DNA from: a virus
Virus record (IMG/VR): IMGVR_UViG_3300028610_000244
Coordinates: 1-64,000 of that record
DNA length: 64,000 nt
Direction: 5' to 3' (one strand)
Shown here: positions 6,803-54,547 of the stretch, one piece after another
Layout: the number at the start of each line of letters is the position of its first letter
Position numbering within the stretch: the first letter of the stretch is position 1
The notes under the pieces: model-generated
What the model was told of the DNA's origin: nothing
Database searches by the model: none
Seen by the model: only the letters and a program-made list of their open reading frames with translations
Made by a program: the position numbers and the translations under genes

Positions 6803-7996
6803 CTATCTGTGTACAGTATAGCACATGGAAAGAATCGTGTCAAGTGATTTTTCCTGCATCACCATATTTTGTAACTCGGCAACGCTTACGTCTTTGGTCA
6901 TTTGTCCTGGCGGCAGCTCGGTGTCGAAGAACGTCTGGGTGAATTGGTTCAGCGTTTCCGGTGTCACGTAGCCCAGGAATAGCTTTAGATCGACGCGGCC
7001 CGGACGCACCAGTGCCGGATCAAGTTTCTCGATGTGGTTCGTCGTCATAATGATGACGCGACCGTGACTCACCGCGATTCCGTCCAGAGTGTTTAGTATT
7101 TCACTGATCCCACCTTTAAGCATCAAGAAATCGCCCTTACTACTCTTATCTTTTTCTGCGTCTCTGTCGCCGGTGGCCTCGTTTGAGTCTACGTCCTCGA
7201 TAACAATGAGTTCCTTGTCTGTACCCAGCTCTGTTATCGTGCTGAGGTTGCTTGCCGGGACTACCGCTACGTCTTGATTCAGGTGTGCCGCTATTGCCCG
7301 GATCAATGATGTCTTGCCGGTTCCGGGAGGGCCATGCAGTAGTATGCCGAGCTGGTACGGGATTCCGTGCAGGATGTACCACTGCTCTTTCTCGCGGAAA
7401 TCCTTGAGCGTCTTTATCAGCTCGTCTTTATCTGCTGCCGGCATCAGGATCGAGTCCAGGTTCCGCTTCGGTTGCTTGATTAGGTTCCAATCTCCGTCGC
7501 CGGAGTGCATCTTTAGCTTCGTCATCTCACAGTTCTCGTCCGGGCACCGCAGATTGTGGAGGATAGCATCAAACAGCTTGTGAGACCGGCCGAGCTTAGA
7601 GAGTGTGATCTCCTCTTTGTCCCGATCCGCGACAGTGTCGATTCTGTCGAGGTCCACCAATATAGGGACATGTCCGTACCACATCAAGTGCTGGCCGTAA
7701 CCCACCGCCTTCGTAGAGAAGTCACCACCCCACCTTCCGTTAACGATCTTGATCCTGCGGAACTTCTTGCTGTATCCTTTACTCTCGAACCAATTCATCA
7801 GGACGTAATAGCTCTCGTTGTTGGACGTCATCGTCATGGATGTGGTCAAGTGCTTCTTCACAAGGGCGGCGACGTTGTATGGCACTTTCCTGAGCAGGTA
7901 CGTGACTATGCCTATCAACCAAGCAGATATGGCTGCGGCCATGAATTCATTTCCGCCCGTGATGTCGTTAATCTTCTGTAGCAGTTGTTCGATCAT
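6803..7996 (-). CDS. BCS1-like AAA ATPase with N-terminal membrane helix
   Basis: A 397-residue protein with the BCS1 layout: a transmembrane helix at about 19-35 (AAAISAWLIGIVTYLL), a BCS1-specific middle domain, then an AAA module with Walker A GPPGTGKT at 222-229, Walker B LIVIED at 263-268, TTN sensor at 318-320 and RPGR at 331-334. BCS1 proteins move folded substrates across membranes in mitochondria; bacterial and phage homologues are uncharacterised. It has GAAGGGTAAGA before the ATG and follows a 35-residue membrane protein. Confidence 0.85.
   Translation of the reverse strand: MIEQLLQKINDITGGNEFMAAAISAWLIGIVTYLLRKVPYNVAALVKKHLTTSMTMTSNNESYYVLMNWFESKGYSKKFRRIKIVNGRWGGDFSTKAVGYGQHLMWYGHVPILVDLDRIDTVADRDKEEITLSKLGRSHKLFDAILHNLRCPDENCEMTKLKMHSGDGDWNLIKQPKRNLDSILMPAADKDELIKTLKDFREKEQWYILHGIPYQLGILLHGPPGTGKTSLIRAIAAHLNQDVAVVPASNLSTITELGTDKELIVIEDVDSNEATGDRDAEKDKSSKGDFLMLKGGISEILNTLDGIAVSHGRVIIMTTNHIEKLDPALVRPGRVDLKLFLGYVTPETLNQFTQTFFDTELPPGQMTKDVSVAELQNMVMQEKSLDTILSMCYTVHR
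6815..6843 (-). promoter_or_regulatory. Sigma70-like promoter
   Basis: On the minus strand TTGACA (6838-6843), a 17-bp spacer ending TGC, and TATACT (6815-6820). It lies inside the last codons of the BCS1-like gene and would transcribe 6748 and downstream genes. Confidence 0.85.
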
Positions 7997-10130: not shown

Positions 10131-10278
10131 GTGAAAACTGTGTGGTAAATATCTACGCAACATTATCGGATGTTGTATTGGTTTGAACGAATGGCAAGGC
10201 TCCAGGGTTTGAAATCGTTTGAAAAATTTTGAGATTTGAAAAGCTCTTGGCTTGAGGACGTGCGGGTAGGAGCGGCCC

Positions 10279-10705
10279 GTCCGATAATAGCATGGGGAAA
10301 GGCCCCGTCCCAGCGGTTATTATCGGACGTTGATGCACGATTTTCGCAGCACAATGCACGATGTTATCGGACGTCAGGCAGCACAGGTTATCGGACCAAG
10401 GCAGGGCGGCTCACGTTATCGGACGTAGGTTATCGGACGTCGTTATTATCGGACCACACCACGTCCGATAACTGAGCGTGACATAACAGGGATTATCGGA
10501 CCAACGTTATCGGACCTCTCTAGGCTCTAGTCCGATAATAAAATCCGGGCTCAACAAACGTCCGATAAGAAGCACGTCCGATAATGTTACGAGGTGCTAC
10601 TGAGTGACGTCCGATAACATATCTGGCGATCAGATACGCATGGTCCGATAATGTTTGCGTGTGCATAGGGAGGAGGTCCGATAATCCGGGGCAGAATTAT
10701 CGGAC
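10279..10705. repeat. Left TTATCGGAC/GTCCGATAA array (17 copies)
   Basis: Exact 9-mers start at 10279, 10320, 10364, 10388, 10416, 10430, 10446, 10463, 10493, 10507, 10530, 10560, 10576, 10609, 10643, 10676 and 10697. The left half is mostly TTATCGGAC, the right half mostly GTCCGATAA. Separating sequences of 5-35 bp are unrelated. No gene is seen between 10140 and 10755. It is not a CRISPR, because repeats are short, in both orientations and irregularly spaced. A protein-binding array is inferred. Confidence 0.9.
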
Positions 10706-12471: not shown

Positions 12472-13104
12472 TTATTCTTGCATAAAGGCAAAACAAGGCG
12501 TTTCACAAAAGATCGACCTGTATACCGACACAAAGCTTTTCGGATTCTTGCCGGATTCTCGCCGTATCGCATACCATAGTAAAGCCTGATAATTTGCTGG
12601 CTTTAAGCCTTGCCGTTTGGCGTCGGCCTGTATTCGCTTTTCTAGTCGGTTGTATAGCCTTGCCGTCAATTTCTTTTCTGGTATGCCATACGCTTGCAAA
12701 ATCCATGTGTCAATTGTGACCGCGTCAAGATTGCCTTTTAGATTCTCGGCAAACCGCGAAACCTTGGGACCGCTTATCGGACGTCCTTGTAGCGACCGAA
12801 TAACGTTTGTTAAATGTGCGGGCATACACTTAGCCAACAGATCGGCGAAACGGTCCGGGTTTAGTTTCCTGTCGATATACGCTTGCAATAGCCTTGCCGA
12901 TTGACGCCAATTGCGTTTGACGGATTGACGCGGCGATGTTGACGCCAAAATGTCAACAAACAGACGCCAATTGTCCCCGTATAATTCTTGTATCAAGTTT
13001 TTGGCGTCTGTATACCATTGCAAGGCTTTTCTATCCGCGACGTCTGGCTTGACGCGGCAGCGTAGTCTTATGTTATCGGACGTCGTTTTCGTTTTGGTTC
13101 TCAT
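12472..13104 (-). CDS. HhH-like phage protein
   Basis: A 210-residue protein. The core SGPKVSRFAENLKGNL followed by AVTIDTWILQAYGI, a K/Y-rich linker, GLKPANYQALLWYAIRR is the arrangement of a phage family with an endonuclease III-like helix-hairpin-helix fold (DUF7178-like, from memory). Catalytic residues are not certain, so DNA glycosylase activity is only a possibility. The ATG at 13104 follows the island leader. Two TTATCGGAC copies are inside (12774, 13073). Confidence 0.65.
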   Translation of the reverse strand: MRTKTKTTSDNIRLRCRVKPDVADRKALQWYTDAKNLIQELYGDNWRLFVDILASTSPRQSVKRNWRQSARLLQAYIDRKLNPDRFADLLAKCMPAHLTNVIRSLQGRPISGPKVSRFAENLKGNLDAVTIDTWILQAYGIPEKKLTARLYNRLEKRIQADAKRQGLKPANYQALLWYAIRRESGKNPKSFVSVYRSIFCETPCFAFMQE

Positions 13105-14470: not shown

Positions 14471-14918
14471 GTCCGATAATAATCGGCGGGCTTTTTCCCG
14501 CGACGTCCGATAAGGACCACGTCCGATAAGGAGGGCGGTCTACCTACTCGGAATTCGTCCGATAACGGCACGAGGTCCAGGTCCGATAAAAAATATATTA
14601 TCGGCGGAACTGCCGGGTCCGATAAGTGTCTAAAGTAATGGCACTGGAGGCAAAAGCATGTGACTTATCGGCGTGGTCCGATAATATCGAGATCGCGGAA
14701 TTCTGCGGCGGCGGTTATTATCGGACGAGGCCAATAATGTCGCGGGTTCTGCGTCGTGAGGCCAGGGATTACCGGACGTGTCCGATAATATCGAAACTGG
14801 TCTCTGAACCGGAATTGGATATTATCGGCAGCGTCCGGTAATGTGTCCAGGCTGGTTATCGGACGCTGTGGAGAAAATCAGTTATCGGACGTGTGGGAGC
14901 TGGTTAGTTTTATCGGAC
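14471..14918. repeat. Right TTATCGGAC/GTCCGATAA array (12 copies)
   Basis: Exact copies start at 14471, 14505, 14521, 14557, 14581, 14617, 14676, 14718, 14780, 14856, 14882 and 14910; several TTATCGGC near-copies lie between. Here GTCCGATAA dominates on the left and TTATCGGAC on the right. Together with the left array it brackets the island. No gene is seen from 14383 to 15096. Confidence 0.9.
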
Positions 14919-14926
14919 CAAAGGTC

Positions 14927-15063
14927 CAACCCACCGTTTACTTTTGGGCACGAAAAAGGCAACCCACCGTTTAGTTTTGGTCGAAAAAGGCAACCCACCC
15001 TTTGATTTTTGCCTCGAAAAAGGCAACCCACCGTTCATTTATTTTCCTTGAGTCCAACCCACC
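14927..15063 (+). repeat. CAACCCACC array, five copies at 31-33 bp spacing
   Basis: Copies at 14927, 14960, 14991, 15024 and 15055, all in one orientation and mostly followed by STTT. Steps of 33, 31, 33 and 31 bp equal about three helical turns. Three copies share the flank CGAAAAAGG. The array directly continues the right TTATCGGAC array and lies in noncoding DNA. Confidence 0.88.
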
Positions 15064-15096: not shown

Positions 15097-15522
15097 TCAA
15101 GCAAATGTCACTCTATATGTCACCACCTTCGCCCAGGATTCAAGTGCTCTGAGTTTTTGAGACAGCGGCCAAAGTATAGGGCGGCGGGAGATTTCGACCC
15201 TCTTTGTCATGCCCTCGGACAATGCCCAGGAAAGTTGCTGGCACCGGCCATAAGTTGTAAAAGGTGTCGATGAGTAAGTCCTGGTTATTACTACCCTTAG
15301 TATTCTTTTCATATTATACATATTAAATTTATAGTTTGAGTCTAAAGAAATTTGACTATCTGTGACGTCCTGGGTATGAGAAATGTTAAGAATATGGTGA
15401 AACACTATGTTCTTCATGTTATTAAACCTAAGCCCAATGTCACTCAACACTTGTATGGTAGCACCTTTTACCAGTTCAAAACCGTATGAATATGTTCCTG
15501 AATATCTAACTCTAGTCCTCAT
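15097..15522 (-). CDS. Unknown 141-residue protein
   Basis: The ATG has GGGAGCAAGTCACT ahead. The middle is unusually AT-rich (about 15290-15430), unlike the flanks, and the C-terminal part has no obvious domain. The open frame is long, but coding status is less certain than for neighbours. Noncoding DNA at 15079-15125 just downstream holds three TGTCAC words. Confidence 0.5.
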   Translation of the reverse strand: MRTRVRYSGTYSYGFELVKGATIQVLSDIGLRFNNMKNIVFHHILNISHTQDVTDSQISLDSNYKFNMYNMKRILRVVITRTYSSTPFTTYGRCQQLSWALSEGMTKRVEISRRPILWPLSQKLRALESWAKVVTYRVTFA

Positions 15523-15555: not shown

Positions 15556-16191
15556 TTAATAGTAATTCTCCATCACAGTTGCCTCTCCGGCTGCGTTTCC
15601 TGCCACCATCACGAGCCGCTGTTGTCTCCAAGACCGTCGCTCTTTTCTGTTTTCTTGCCTCGCCAAGACTTTTTCACTCCGTTTCCATGCAGCCTCGACG
15701 TCACCGGCTCGGGCATACCACACCCGACCAGACACCGGATAGCTCCAGTACCATGCCTCAGTTTGGTGCCGTAAAGCGTACCCTTTTTCGACCCTGTACG
15801 CAATCATTTCGCCCATTGTTTTACCCTGTTCCTGCACCAATTCCAGGGCCTTAATTGAGATGCCCAGCTCGGTCAAGACGCCAGAACATTTCAACGCAGT
15901 CACGACTCGGCTACGGTCGCTGTAAGGCATGTAGTATTTCCCACAGACCCCACACATCCGGCATACCCGCATACCCGCAGACACTCCGGCCAGCTTCTCG
16001 GCAGCAGTGAGTATCCGCTTGCATCCGTGTGGCATGTCACGCTTTCTCGGCACTCGTCGCTTCACTACGGCCTCACCGTGTCGCGGTATCCTGTTGCCGT
16101 TAGGCTCCTCGTAGTCGGTCCCAGGCGTGAATCCAACCCTCTTGGTGAATACAAATGGCTCCTTGCTCTCCTTAAACCTTATCCACCACAT
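15556..16191 (-). CDS. Unknown 211-residue basic protein with Cys cluster
   Basis: Contains CRMCGVCGKYYMPYSDRSR near residue 77-95, a possible half zinc site, and basic N- and C-termini. It starts at GGAGGTCGTGACATG and overlaps the upstream gene by 13 bp. Function unknown. Confidence 0.65.
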   Translation of the reverse strand: MWWIRFKESKEPFVFTKRVGFTPGTDYEEPNGNRIPRHGEAVVKRRVPRKRDMPHGCKRILTAAEKLAGVSAGMRVCRMCGVCGKYYMPYSDRSRVVTALKCSGVLTELGISIKALELVQEQGKTMGEMIAYRVEKGYALRHQTEAWYWSYPVSGRVWYARAGDVEAAWKRSEKVLARQENRKERRSWRQQRLVMVAGNAAGEATVMENYY

Positions 16192-41912: not shown

Positions 41913-44900
41913 TTATTTTGTCACCCATGCACCGGCTTCGTAGAAATTGAAGACGGCTGTTGTCGTGTTATAAATCACCATGCCATTGACCGCAGTCAAG
42001 GCGTTACGCTGTGTCGTAGTCATCTGTGCTGTTTCAAGAGCACCGCTCAACTTGGTACTACCGGCAGCACGACATCGAAGAATTTCTTTTATTCCCGAAG
42101 CGACAGTTTGGACCTGAATCACGAAATCAAAATCAAGATTACCTGATGTCGAATTCGCCTTATGGGCTCCGATCTCAGCACACAATACCGGAACGTCAGC
42201 GGCGTCAGTGTGATGCCCAGTGAATCCCATACCGCCACCTGAGCCTAGTTCCTGTGGTGTTGAGTCGTGAAAATTTGCTTGCATGTTGTCGGCGGACACG
42301 ACTTCGAGCGGCAACGTGTATGTAGCAGTTGCTTGAGTTGGGTCGCCTATCACGAGTTGTTCTGTGTGAATCCTACCCTCAACTCTGATTCCCATATCAA
42401 ATTCCAGGATACCATCAACGCCAACGTCGTTGTCGGTGACATACATCTTTGTACCGTCAGGACTGAATGTTATCGAGTTCGGCACGGTTGCAATCGTTGT
42501 CAGGTCCAGCGATCTTGAAAGTATGCCGGTTGTTATGTCCCATGCCGTTGACAGATCGTACTCGTGAATGTCATCTTCCGCCGAGCCATCCACTACATAC
42601 AAACGCCGGCCATCTGGGCTAAATGAGAAGCCCTCAATGTTGTCCATAGAGGCGTCGAACTTCGTCGTGTATGTTGCGGTAGTGACATCCCAGGCCGTAG
42701 TCAGTGTCCAGAGCTGGACTTCATTTAGTGTCCCATCACTGATGAACATCTTGAGACCATCGGGCTTGAAGCGGATACCTATCGGAGTCGTAGAGCTGGT
42801 AGATACGTCCTTTAGGTTCGTCGCGGATGCCGTCGATAACGTCCAAGCAGTTGAGAGCGTATACATGTTGACTTCATCACCGGCAGAACCGACAATGTAC
42901 ATCTTGGTTCCATCAAGGTTGAAGCAGACACCCATCGGATTGGCTTCCTCGGTGGTCGTGCTCATCGTAGATGTCCAGGTCATTGAGGACACATCCCACG
43001 GAGTTGAGAGAGCAAACTCATTGATCTCATCATCCACATTACAGACGATGAAGACCTTCTTGCCATCAGGGCTAAACGCCGAATCGTGCGGCCCAGTGCC
43101 CCAGGTGGCTAACGCAAACGTCTGCTTATATATTGCTGTCGTGGTGTTCCATAAATTATGATGACTGCCCTGAGTCTCACCATTAGTGTAGGTGGTGACA
43201 CCGTCGTTGATAAGCCCAGTGATCTCGACGTCTTGGAGTAGCTGGATGCCGTCAGTGCTGAATCGAGCCAGTACAGTTGTTTGCTGGTTGATTTCAGTCT
43301 CATTATAGCTCTGGACAGTGAGAGGCCCGCTCTGTTCTTTCTTGATGAAGTTGCTTGTGCCACCGACAAAGACGAACGCTGTTTCTCCAGGTGAATCAAA
43401 TCCACTTGGACCCTCTACGAGTATATTGTTACGAATATATGTGTAGCCGTCACTGTCTATGGAGGCAACCGTGACATCAGCACTGTCTTTGACATAAACT
43501 TTCTTGGCTCCGGCAGCATCACCAACCCGGAGAACCACATCCTCTGTAACCGACCTAATCCCCATCTCTGTCTGGCCCTGCATGTAGAGACCACCGACAG
43601 GGCTCCCATGAATGTAGGCTCGTCTGGCGGCGTTGATAAAGAGCCGGATATAGTCGTCGCCTTCGTCGGCCTTACGATAGATATAGAGCTTTTTGCCATC
43701 ACTAACATCACTAACATCGGTGTCACCGAAGCAAACAATGTCACCAGTGACATCAGGTTGGACCTTTAGGTCTCCTGTACTCCATATCTCAGGAGCCCTT
43801 ACTCCGCCAACCACTTTCAGCCAACCACCATACTCAAACCGAGCCACCTCTGTGCCGCTGTAGCCCATAGAGTAGATGGTCGTTACATCATTGCTGGCAA
43901 TCCGCAACTCATCACCGGCCTCGACCCCGATTGCGAAAGTAGTCAAATACATATTGAGCTTTGGTCCGGTCTCGTTGGGGAACTGAACCAAGTTCGGCTT
44001 GACAGTGCCAACGACCGTGAGAACGCCACCCGCATACGTGAAGTTATTACTGCCCACTAAGCCCGCACCCACCGAATTTCCGTAAGCGACTTGGCCTACA
44101 GTGAATCCCTGCAAGTCTGCACCGAAGTAAGAATGGTCAGTGACTTGTGCCGTCGTGATCGTGATGCCCGTACTCTTATCCCATGCAGTGAAAACAGGAT
44201 CGGTTTCGACCAACAGATAAGCCTGCAAGTCGGTGATCTGTGCCTCAGTGATTGTGATACCTGTACTCCGGTCCCAAGCCATGAAGACAGGATCGGTCTC
44301 ATCGCCGGTAACGAAATGATTCAGGTCTGTGATCTGCGACTCGGTGATCGTGATACCAGTCGATCTATCCCAAGCCATGAAGACAGGATCGGTTTCATCG
44401 GCGGTGACGAAATGATCGAGGTCGCTGATCTGTGACTCGGTAATTACGATGCCGGTGCTTTTGTCCCAGGCCGAGAAGACAGGATCGGTTTCTGTCACCA
44501 ATACATCTTGTCCGCCAGACTGCAAGCCAAAGGGTGCATTGACCACCCCGGCTGGAGATATGAAGAGTCGATAAGAACTGGTGTCAGCGATTGAAAAACC
44601 ACCTGCGGGAGTAGGTGTCCCGGTGGCCCCTGCTCTCAAGAACCATCGGTCCCCACCTGGAGCCGTGTTATTGATTTCAATACATGCGTTTTGCCCGCCA
44701 ACGGACTCGGAGCCCTTCACAACGAGTCTATTATTTATCACCGGGATAGTAGCTGTGCCCGTGACCACCAAGTCACCAATCGCTACGTCGTCGCCGGTGA
44801 CAGTAGGTGACACCGTTGTTCCGACTCGCTTCCAGTGCTCACCATGCAGAACATTAGCACCGAACTCTTCCCACTTGTCGGCGTTTGCCGCGAATGTCCC

Positions 44901-47261: not shown

Positions 47262-48461
47262 CTACCTCCGCCTTCTTGACTTTGCTTTGATTGAGAGGAC
47301 CGGCGTCAAGCTGTACTCGACGTTGCAGAGATCAGCCTGATTACGCATGACATCTTCGATATCCTTATAGGCTCCAGGTGCCTCATCCAAATCTGTTTTG
47401 GATGTTAGGTCATGCAAGACACCGAGATCATCAAGTAGCCGCCTCTGGGCTTCCAGGTCCAGCGTCTTCTTGGCGGCAGTGCGTGACATCGGTCGGCCGG
47501 CACCGTGGGATGTGGATAAGAACGACATCTTCTCGCCAGTGTGCGAGACAATGAACGACCTCGTGCCCATGCTTCCAGGGATGATTCCTCTGGCGTCACC
47601 GAAGTAAGGACCAGCAGCACCCTTGCGATGCACGAGCACATTCCGGCCGAGGTGGTTCTCCATCTTTGCGTGGTTGTGACATATATCAACGTGGCTAGTG
47701 ACACAGGTGCCGGGCCAGATCGCTCGGAACGCTTTCAAAATATTCAGCATCATCTTCGCTCTGCTCTTCTTGGCGAAGTCGATGCAGTAAGCCATCTCCC
47801 GCATGTACTCATCATAGCCCTTATGGCCGCGACGAAAGAACGCCAAATCACTGTCAGGTGTCACCTGTGAGAAATTCTTTTCATTTTCTTGCTTCGCCCA
47901 ATTATTATAGAAGTCTGCAACTTGTTTACCGAGGTTCCTGGAACCGCTGTGAATCATCACCCAGATGTCACCGTGTTGGTCAACCTGGACTTCGATGAAG
48001 TGATTGCCGCCGCCAAGTGTACCGAGCTGCTTGAGAGCCCGCTCGTATTGCTTGTTGACCACCTGCCCCATCAAATCAAGGTCCGGCATTTCGTGAACAC
48101 CGCACGGCTTGTCGTGCCACTTGTGCCCAACAGGTACGGCCTGCTGGATCAGTGCTCGGAGATTCTCCTGGTGATCTCGCATCGCACCGATTACCATACC
48201 GCCCAACCGGCACGCTATCATCCCGCAGCCGATGTCAACACCTACGGCGTTTGGGACCACGACATCCTGGGTCGCCAAGATACCACCGATGGGCATACCA
48301 TAACCGACGTGCATGTCAGGCATAGCTGCAAGGTGATGGACTGCGAACGGCAGACGTCTCAGGTTTCTGAGCTGCTTCCAGCAGTCTTCACTCAGCGACT
48401 TTGGGTTCACCCAGAACTTCACAGGCAGGTGCCCGTCCTCAAGGTTCCATTCAGCTTTCAT
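47262..48461 (-). CDS. rtcB: RNA-splicing ligase RtcB
   Basis: A 399-residue RNA ligase that joins 2',3'-cyclic-phosphate or 3'-phosphate ends to 5'-OH ends using GTP and Mn2+. Motifs: NAVGVDIGCGM (metal Asp and Cys at 76 and 79), LGTLGGGNHFIEV, HSGSRNLGKQV, SHVDICHNHAKMEN, IPGSMGTRSFIVS and the guanylylated-His motif STSHGAGR. Length matches the bacterial family. It would repair tRNAs cut by host anticodon nucleases. GGAGGACAAA before ATG 48461; overlaps the dUTPase gene by 11 bp. Confidence 0.95.
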   Translation of the reverse strand: MKAEWNLEDGHLPVKFWVNPKSLSEDCWKQLRNLRRLPFAVHHLAAMPDMHVGYGMPIGGILATQDVVVPNAVGVDIGCGMIACRLGGMVIGAMRDHQENLRALIQQAVPVGHKWHDKPCGVHEMPDLDLMGQVVNKQYERALKQLGTLGGGNHFIEVQVDQHGDIWVMIHSGSRNLGKQVADFYNNWAKQENEKNFSQVTPDSDLAFFRRGHKGYDEYMREMAYCIDFAKKSRAKMMLNILKAFRAIWPGTCVTSHVDICHNHAKMENHLGRNVLVHRKGAAGPYFGDARGIIPGSMGTRSFIVSHTGEKMSFLSTSHGAGRPMSRTAAKKTLDLEAQRRLLDDLGVLHDLTSKTDLDEAPGAYKDIEDVMRNQADLCNVEYSLTPVLSIKAKSRRRR

Positions 48462-49263
48462 TTTGTCCTCCTGGTATTGTGCTTTGGTATCTGCGAACAG
48501 TGCAGTCCGGTTGTCCACAATATTTGCAGCCGTCACCGGCTCCTACACAATTCTTCATCTGACCTGGGGCCTGCAAGACATACCCTTCGCCTCCGCATCT
48601 TGTGCAGTTCGGGTCTGGCTCAGGAAGGATCGACGCCACATCCTCTTTCGGACCCGTGTTGAATTTCGTATCCAGGCAATCACAGTACGGCGGGTCATCC
48701 AGGGCGAGTACACCTTTGGCCCACTCGATGTAATACTCCTGTGCCTCTGGTGACAAGTCTTCCAGTGACTCGCCGGTCAATGATCCCAGCTCAGGATTCA
48801 TGTCCGGGTGTTCCAGGAACAGCTTCCATGCCTTGTCCTTGATCTCGATGCAGTAGCCGTCGTCTTGTCGCTTGATGTTCTTCGTCAGCTTACTTGAGTA
48901 CATGCCGCAAACCATCTCCGGTGTCATGCCCAGAGCTTGAGCGAAGCTGATCCAGAAATGCAGCATGTCAATTATTTCTTTGCGACAAGACTCGATATCT
49001 TTGATCTCGTAACGTCTGCCTTCCTGGGCTTCTTGACACCAGTGCTTCCAGTAGGTGCAGTTTCGCAGCTCTTCCATCTCACTGCTCATTGCCTTAATGA
49101 AGTTGTCGATCCAGACGCCGGCGTCAAGCTTGGCTCCCTGGTAATCTCGGAAATCTGTTTGCTGTCCGGCTACCGAGAACGTCTTGGCAAACCGTGCGGC
49201 GTCAAAACCTATACGCTCATTGAACGTCTCTTGCATCTTAAACAGATCGGCTATTGTGAACAT
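48451..49263 (-). CDS. dUTPase of the all-alpha (dimeric) type with zinc-finger tail
   Basis: A 270-residue protein. The N-terminal 150 residues carry SSEMEELRNCTYWKHWC and CRKEIIDMLHFWISFAQALGM, the metal-binding E/D pattern of all-alpha NTP pyrophosphohydrolases (dUTPase_2). It would hydrolyse dUTP to dUMP, matching cytidine deaminase in the window. The last 90 residues add zinc-ligand clusters (CDCLDTK, CTRCGGEG, CKYCGQPDC), unusual for the family. Confidence 0.8.
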   Translation of the reverse strand: MFTIADLFKMQETFNERIGFDAARFAKTFSVAGQQTDFRDYQGAKLDAGVWIDNFIKAMSSEMEELRNCTYWKHWCQEAQEGRRYEIKDIESCRKEIIDMLHFWISFAQALGMTPEMVCGMYSSKLTKNIKRQDDGYCIEIKDKAWKLFLEHPDMNPELGSLTGESLEDLSPEAQEYYIEWAKGVLALDDPPYCDCLDTKFNTGPKEDVASILPEPDPNCTRCGGEGYVLQAPGQMKNCVGAGDGCKYCGQPDCTVRRYQSTIPGGQNES

Positions 49264-53550: not shown

Positions 53551-53590
53551 GTCATTCTCCTCGATACTCGGTTGCGTCCTCACTGCTTAA

Positions 53591-53619
53591 AGTATACTAC
53601 ACAGATTGATTCTATGCAA
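53591..53619 (-). promoter_or_regulatory. TTTGCAT/TATACTTTAAGC promoter
   Basis: TTGCAT (53614-53619), 17-bp spacer, TATACT (53591-53596), TTAAGC; preceded by the A/T tract AAATTTTATTTTCT. Confidence 0.8.
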
Positions 53620-53680
53620 ATAGAAAATAAAATTTATTTATGTTTTGCATTCCATGAATATTGGCGTAGACTTTGAAGAG

Positions 53681-53746: not shown

Positions 53747-54547
53747 TTATTGAAAGATGCGAATACGTAGCTCCGCATCAAGTCTGTTGAGTGGCGTGGC
53801 AAAGCCCATAGAGGCTGTGCTGTTTAGTCGGGCTATTATGATGCCGGCGACCTTTCCATCTACTATGGCAGGTCCGCCGCTGCATCCACCCCAAGCAAAA
53901 CCGTCGTAGACAAATTTATTTTTCCAGTTTTCACTTGACACGCGAGCCCAAGTTATGATAAGCTGGGGCTCGTCGCCGAATGGCGTGCCTATGCAAATGA
54001 CCTCAGCACCAAGAACAGGAGACGGACCCATATCCAACCACGGCCCACATCGGCCTTCTATAATGACCAGGGCTAGATCGTCATTGAAGTCCTCAAGAAC
54101 CTCTACGGCTCTATACTCTACGCCGTCAGGTCCGGTAACGAAGACGGTCTCATCCGCTATTCGGTCATCCACTACGTGCTTCGCAGTAAGCAGCTTATTA
54201 TCGGACACAAAGACGCCGGTGCCCCGTGTCGGTCCACGGAATACAGTTATCGGACCATTTTGTCTCGGCTTCTGCATGACCCGGAGAGTGGCCGAGCTTG
54301 ACCGTAATCGTAGAAGGTCCAACCCACCGTTTGCAGAACCCAACCCACCGTCTGTTAGGTCCAACCCACCCTCCGTAGAACCCAACCCACCCTTGAGCTG
54401 AGCGATCCTGTTGTGCAGAGAATCCAACCCACCCTCTTGCATGTGGTTCCAATGTCGCAGGCTGACTAAGTCACTCTCTTGGCGGTTGCACAAGAAGACT
54501 GTTAATCCAAGTGTCACGGTAAGCAAGATGTTTGTCAGTGTCTTCAT
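53747..54547 (-). CDS. Trypsin-like (S1C/HtrA-type) serine protease
   Basis: A 266-residue protein with N-terminal signal anchor (ILLTVTLGLTVFLC), a GGL heptad-like linker at 39-78, then a chymotrypsin-fold protease with His124 (LLTAKHVV), Asp157 (NDDLALV) and Ser223 (GGCSGGPA). Probably exported or periplasmic. No PDZ domain. The linker is encoded by five CAACCCACC copies on the plus strand, and two TTATCGGAC copies fall in the catalytic domain. GGGAGAACT before ATG 54547. Confidence 0.85.
   Translation of the reverse strand: MKTLTNILLTVTLGLTVFLCNRQESDLVSLRHWNHMQEGGLDSLHNRIAQLKGGLGSTEGGLDLTDGGLGSANGGLDLLRLRSSSATLRVMQKPRQNGPITVFRGPTRGTGVFVSDNKLLTAKHVVDDRIADETVFVTGPDGVEYRAVEVLEDFNDDLALVIIEGRCGPWLDMGPSPVLGAEVICIGTPFGDEPQLIITWARVSSENWKNKFVYDGFAWGGCSGGPAIVDGKVAGIIIARLNSTASMGFATPLNRLDAELRIRIFQ
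54198..54255 (+). repeat. TTATCGGAC pair inside the protease gene
   Basis: Exact copies at 54198-54206 and 54247-54255, 49 bp apart, within codons around VSDNK and GPIT. Other isolated copies: 28446, 33602, 37708 and 52319. Confidence 0.85.
54320..54433 (+). repeat. CAACCCACC array inside the protease gene
   Basis: Copies at 54320, 54341, 54362, 54383 and 54425: steps 21, 21, 21 and 42 bp. All share an orientation and most are followed by STC/STT as in the 14.93 kb array. In the gene frame they encode repeated GGL units. Confidence 0.9.

Follow-up and report, generated by a model that had tools for sequence, protein, structure and literature searches.

Results

Two arrays of one nine-letter word in a phage genome

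The window, that is, the whole stretch of 64,000 bp that was analyzed, comprises positions 1 to 64,000 of the 97,868-bp IMG/VR record IMGVR_UViG_3300028610_000244 (called G000). The record belongs to a tailed phage, as a terminase, a portal, and a major head protein were recognized. The best named matches of its PolA, primase, and portal (46–51% identity) are among PaMx11/Ab18-like Pseudomonas phages and Bordetella phages (e.g. FP1), and its conserved genes lie on the - strand in the stretches examined. All sequences used in this work come from metagenome contigs, in part fragmentary, the genes are simple ORF calls, and profiles were run on selected proteins. The gene that closes the PolA/primase/helicase module encodes a 266-aa protein with a hydrophobic N terminus and a Trypsin_2 domain (PF13365, E 4e-18; Pfam). 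It carries one of two arrays built from the same word:

14927..15063, - strand: noncoding array of five GGTGGGTTG sites in one orientation, with gaps of 31/33/31/33 bp in gene sense
53747..54547, - strand: trypsin-like protease gene, product anchored or secreted, Trypsin_2, with an array in the N-terminal linker
54320..54433, - strand: protease array of five GGTGGGTTG sites read as GGT GGG TTG (GGL), in steps of 21/21/21/42 bp

The word has nine letters, CAACCCACC being its form on the + strand and GGTGGGTTG the same word on the coding strand. The sequence-only reading had reported five copies in the protease gene at 54320-54433 in 21/21/21/42-bp steps, and this was confirmed by exact matches starting at 54320, 54341, 54362, 54383, and 54425, all on the + strand. 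The identical 9-mer was also found in the distant noncoding array, as that reading had claimed, with five copies at 14927-15063 that start at 14927, 14960, 14991, 15024, and 15055 (steps of 33, 31, 33, and 31 bp). In total, CAACCCACC occurs 11 times in the window versus 0.49 copies expected from shuffles, none of 100 shuffles reached 11, and 10 of 13 exact 9-mers fall in the two clusters. The sites are asymmetric and keep a single orientation relative to transcription; AACCCACC is present 27 times on the + strand of the 97,868-bp record and not once on the - strand. The conserved site is wider than the 9-mer (rAg-GGTGGGTTG-g..TT), and 31 noncoding and 15 coding sites have in common an A two bases before the word, a G after it, and a T at +5.

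A shorter form, GGTGGGTT, is the most over-represented octamer of G000 coding DNA when compared with synonymous shuffles, and its copies are dispersed (e.g. 57382, 65188, and 79307 in record coordinates). Its observed versus expected counts in coding DNA were 16/1.5 in G000, 4/0.6 in G002, 5/0.7 in G006, and 0/0.6 in G003 (relatives described below), an excess that may in part reflect codon-pair bias. As the octamer is enriched in G000, G002, and G006 but not in G003, a Chi-like or KOPS-like role was not adopted. Coding DNA of G001 shows instead an excess of GGTGGGTC, a variant that is present in the array of G001 itself. Among other repeated elements of the window, AGTGACATG is a recurrent start-codon context, with GTGAC just before ATG, dispersed on the - strand (e.g. 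47262, 40279, and 23697), and many of its copies follow a Shine-Dalgarno-like stretch. A 96-bp tandem repeat of 2.8 copies lies at 44229-44492, while genes for an RtcB-like RNA ligase and a BCS1-like AAA ATPase were noted at 47262-48536 and 6803-7996, respectively.

Both arrays recur in related phages

Three related IMG/VR contigs were found via the primase (70–76% identity), namely G001 (L011), G002 (L012), and G003 (L013), and two more, G006 and G007, were found via the DNA pattern. A protease profile scan returned the same five contigs and no others. The proteases of G006 and G007 are near-identical to each other, and these two contigs were counted once, giving four further distinct phages beside G000. 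The protease and the noncoding array were present in all four, and the array within the protease gene was also kept in three of them: the exact sites in the protease number five in G000, two in G001, three in G003, five in G006/G007, and zero in G002. The noncoding array of G002 is down to two sites. Taken together, the two noncoding sites and the lack of exact protease sites in G002 indicate that the arrays are not essential in their exact form.

Neither clustered sites nor the partner word GTCCGATAA (see below) were detected in the more distant contigs G004 and G005, which have related replication genes, and GGTGGGTTG was absent from the examined half of Tunturi_3, an acidobacterial phage that is similar in length and encodes a DUF7178 homologue. 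Contigs with GGTGGGTTG near GTCCGATAA beyond G001, G002, and G003 held single copies that were read as chance, and further IMG/VR contigs with paired GGTGGGTTG mostly showed single pairs or other repeats. Two contigs, L058 (4555-4660) and L104 (4098-4330), contain noncoding-looking GGTGGG repeats, phased at about 10/11 bp, near a terminator and without GTCCGATAA.

Codon choice and helical phasing

The sequence-only reading had proposed synonymous codon choice in homologous proteases as a check, and this analysis revealed that the codons of the 9-mer are kept, the opposite of the unrelated codons that it had named as refuting its idea. GGT GGG TTG encodes 15 of the 16 linker GGLs of G000, G001, G003, and G006, the sixteenth being GGC GGG TTG, whereas about 1% was expected for each (0.6–1.2% per GGL from the codon usage of each phage), with GGL copies of one gene not being fully independent and G003 having two identical neighboring units. 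The spacers between the GGL units differ, within as well as between lineages. The number of GGL copies per protease varies from 0 to 5 among the aligned homologues, and the G002 protease carries ESGLKVSRDP at the position of the repeat. Judged from this alignment, the GGL protein repeat is dispensable.

In the noncoding array, no in-register ORF runs across the sites, which occupy all three frames, each of them stopped inside the array. When one mismatch was allowed, the gaps were 31-33-31-33 in G000, 11-21-31-21-11-21-21 in G003, and 33 in G002, while G001 and G006, two diverged phages, have the identical geometry 11-31-21-11-31-21-11. Thus, each of the 26 gaps from five phages is 11, 21, 31, or 33 bp, which corresponds to one, two, or three turns of the helix. 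Their phasing at 10.5 bp is R = 0.936, a value not reached by any of 2000 random gap sets, and no opposite-strand site was found in the noncoding arrays of the five phages. Only 11 of the 26 gaps are divisible by 3, which excludes codon register as the cause of the spacing.

These data bear on the possibility that the repeat matters at the protein level only, i.e. that tandem duplication lengthened the linker, the noncoding array being an unrelated chance or decayed copy. In its favor, a step of 21 bp does equal seven codons, and two neighboring units of G003 are identical. However, the codons are identical over three diverged lineages despite diverged spacers, a protein may have any number of copies from 0 to 5, and the noncoding arrays are phased yet out of codon register, so that we regard this explanation as extremely improbable. 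Rather, codon conservation together with helical phasing off the codon register argues for selection on double-stranded DNA, and the two arrays are very probably phased protein-binding sites under such selection. Three independent homologous proteases (and a near-duplicate contig) retain these codons while the number of protein repeats ranges from 0 to 5, and selection on DNA with the GGL repeat as its by-product is strongly supported.

The sequence-only reading had left open whether the selection acts on DNA or RNA. The DNA part of that claim gained from the codons, the phasing, and the flanks, while the RNA part is disfavored by the helical phasing. An RNA or G-quadruplex element, in which the G-rich sense strand folds in the mRNA or in a displaced strand, would fit a G-rich word that is strictly gene-sense (27:0), and 11-bp doublets do form a canonical motif in some relatives. 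Nevertheless, no canonical G3 motif (loops up to 7) occurs in the noncoding arrays of G000 and G002 or in any protease array, and a quadruplex does not need a fixed phasing of 11/21/31 bp. A G-quadruplex was therefore rejected as a property common to the arrays, its canonical motif being confined to the noncoding arrays of some relatives, and this type of element is a very improbable explanation.

Surroundings of the noncoding array

The following features accompany the noncoding array and the 3' side of the protease gene:

10163..10705, both orientations: GTCCGATAA array 1, beyond the DUF7178 gene; layout repeated in three relatives
12472..13104, - strand: DUF7178 gene, between both GTCCGATAA arrays in four phages; predicted HhH-GPD 8-oxoguanine-glycosylase-like fold
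14472..14918, both orientations: GTCCGATAA array 2, directly adjoining the noncoding GGTGGGTTG array
15297..15346, no strand: AT-rich 50-mer, 84% AT, the top of the 97.9-kb record, 234 bp from the noncoding array
15556..16191, - strand: gene for a basic 211-aa protein; in four phages, a homologue precedes the noncoding array by about 0.46–0.59 kb
53586..53625, - strand: first early-type promoter, TTGCAT-N17-TATACT, after a terminator-like hairpin 3' of the protease gene

The AT-rich 50-mer sits between the basic-protein gene and the noncoding array and is a candidate DNA-unwinding element. In G000, G001, G003 (tied first), and G006, the most AT-rich 50-mer of the contig is found 150–290 bp upstream of this array, and no AT-rich block lies within 500 bp of the protease arrays. 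The basic protein matched no PDB fold at E below 0.001.

On the 3' side of the noncoding array (in gene sense), the order is GTCCGATAA words, the DUF7178 gene, promoter-like sites, and the second set of GTCCGATAA words in G000, G001, G003, and G006. The 8-base core of GTCCGATAA has 44 copies in the window, on both strands, mostly in the two noncoding arrays plus singles. It was considered as a host signal and rejected, the doublets being scattered over unrelated bacterial phyla; matches to the word in literature text were of primer type, judging by titles and abstracts. The DUF7178 protein models as an HhH-GPD 8-oxoguanine-glycosylase-like fold: its predicted structure (mean pLDDT 74) gave a VIA Z of 11.5 over 163 residues with 3knt, while a Foldseek search with the same model returned nothing with E below 0.001. 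DUF7178 relatives occur in mycobacteriophages, some of them annotated as glycosylase. The gene was not found in G002, a 35.5-kb fragment in which the noncoding array is reduced, and a literature text search retrieved no paper mentioning DUF7178.

Early promoters and possible transcription control

Strong early-type promoters, TTGCAT-N17-TATACTTTAAG, are distributed over 12435-53619 on the - strand of G000, and the DUF7178 gene and the protease enclose nearly all of them. In five phages, the protease gene is succeeded by a hairpin resembling a terminator and by a promoter of the TTGCAT type or a close variant of it. At eight promoters of five phages, GTCCGATAA stands 28, 38, or 48 bp upstream of the -35 box and in one orientation, and owing to these fixed distances and the single orientation it is probably the site of a transcription regulator, activator-like in character.

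The main rival to a replication origin is transcription control, in which the arrays would be operators or enhancers, perhaps of a stoperator-like or looping kind, of a phage regulator for the early region between them. Direct repeats 21 bp apart are used by AraC-type regulators, and this reading is favored by (i) the confinement of nearly all TTGCAT-N17-TATACT promoters of G000 to the region between protease and DUF7178 gene, (ii) the promoter 3' of the protease in five phages, and (iii) the activator-site look of the partner word at its set distances from eight promoters. On the other hand, the GGTGGGTTG sites are not promoter-proximal (at the protease locus they lie 0.6–0.7 kb upstream), no regulator was found, and the AT-rich block near the noncoding array is left unexplained. 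We therefore consider transcription control possible, though on the unlikely side.

A known system of this kind is the stoperators of Cluster A mycobacteriophages, sites that occur throughout the genome (PMC6550527). The sites described here resemble them in being short and asymmetric, in keeping one orientation to transcription, and in lying also outside promoters, and DUF7178 relatives are found in mycobacteriophages. They differ in forming phased clusters at two loci, with the shorter GGTGGGTT being the dispersed element.

Discussion

The combination of phased direct repeats, an AT-rich block, and adjoining regulatory boxes, as known from iteron origins and SPP1, favors an origin role for the noncoding array. 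In the explanation that we prefer, GGTGGGTTG would be the word recognized by one sequence-specific protein that binds double-stranded DNA, and its sites would be iteron-like direct repeats on one helix face, placed at two positions of the genome. The noncoding array, the AT-rich block, and the abutting GTCCGATAA boxes would most likely form the core of a replication origin, where the protein would load side by side, wrap or bend the DNA, and help to open the AT-rich block. The protease array might then serve as another origin, in fork control, or in handcuffing, and the GGL repeat of the protein would be its tolerated by-product. We put the probability of this explanation as a whole, i.e. iteron-like sites of one protein with the noncoding set at a replication origin and a second set in the protease gene, at about one in two. 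A single binding protein common to both loci is likely on the grounds of the sites themselves; the protein, its use by both loci, and the origin function are what we infer.

Direct repeats in one orientation and in helical register are a feature of iteron origins that is present here. Profile scans of about 40 proteins revealed no origin-binding protein or initiator. At third codon positions, GC skew showed no consistent switch at the arrays across the relatives, and the switch seen in G000 has the sign of a terminus, not of an origin.

Iteron origins with second iteron loci are familiar from the plasmids P1 (oriR/incA) and F (incC), and the origin of phage lambda is located inside gene O. Like these systems, the phage has direct repeats spaced by about two helix turns, a second set elsewhere that may serve in control, and putative origin repeats within a gene, and it differs in the word, in the 11-31-21 spacing pattern, and in gene context. 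Phage SPP1 has two origins, oriL and oriR, consisting of direct repeats and an AT-rich region, one in gene 38 and one intergenic, that are bound by one protein (PMC6316719). As in SPP1, there are two distant sets of direct repeats, one genic and one intergenic, and an AT-rich block near the intergenic set. Unlike in SPP1, the gene that carries the array is a protease rather than the initiator, no gp38 homologue was recognized, and the coding array has no AT-rich block.

The sequence-only reading had also suggested centromere-like or packaging sites. In favor of such a partition or packaging site (centromere-like, or pac/cos-related), ParR/parC-type centromeres use 11-bp phased direct repeats. 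However, the terminase genes are about 80 kb distant up the map (about 16 kb when measured around the circle), and no ParA/ParM/ParB-like match was obtained among the proteins scanned, a non-exhaustive set that included the array neighbors. The suggestion found no support; the surroundings look more like those of a replication origin or of a region controlling early transcription, and we consider a partition or packaging site improbable.

Returning to the origin, a more specific and rather doubtful proposal is that the protease array is a functional second iteron set, which the same initiator would pair with the origin array across 7–39 kb (handcuffing or fork stalling). The two sets would then bracket the early region and couple replication control to early transcription, the linker having been shaped by DNA-level selection.

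For this uncultured phage clade, distantly related to the PaMx11/Ab18 group, the arrays mark a probable origin or control region. The protease linker is a clear natural case of a protein repeat that owes its existence to a phased protein-binding array in the underlying DNA, and the homologues allow this to be tested codon by codon. It also serves as a warning that low-complexity linkers of phage proteins can be DNA signals.
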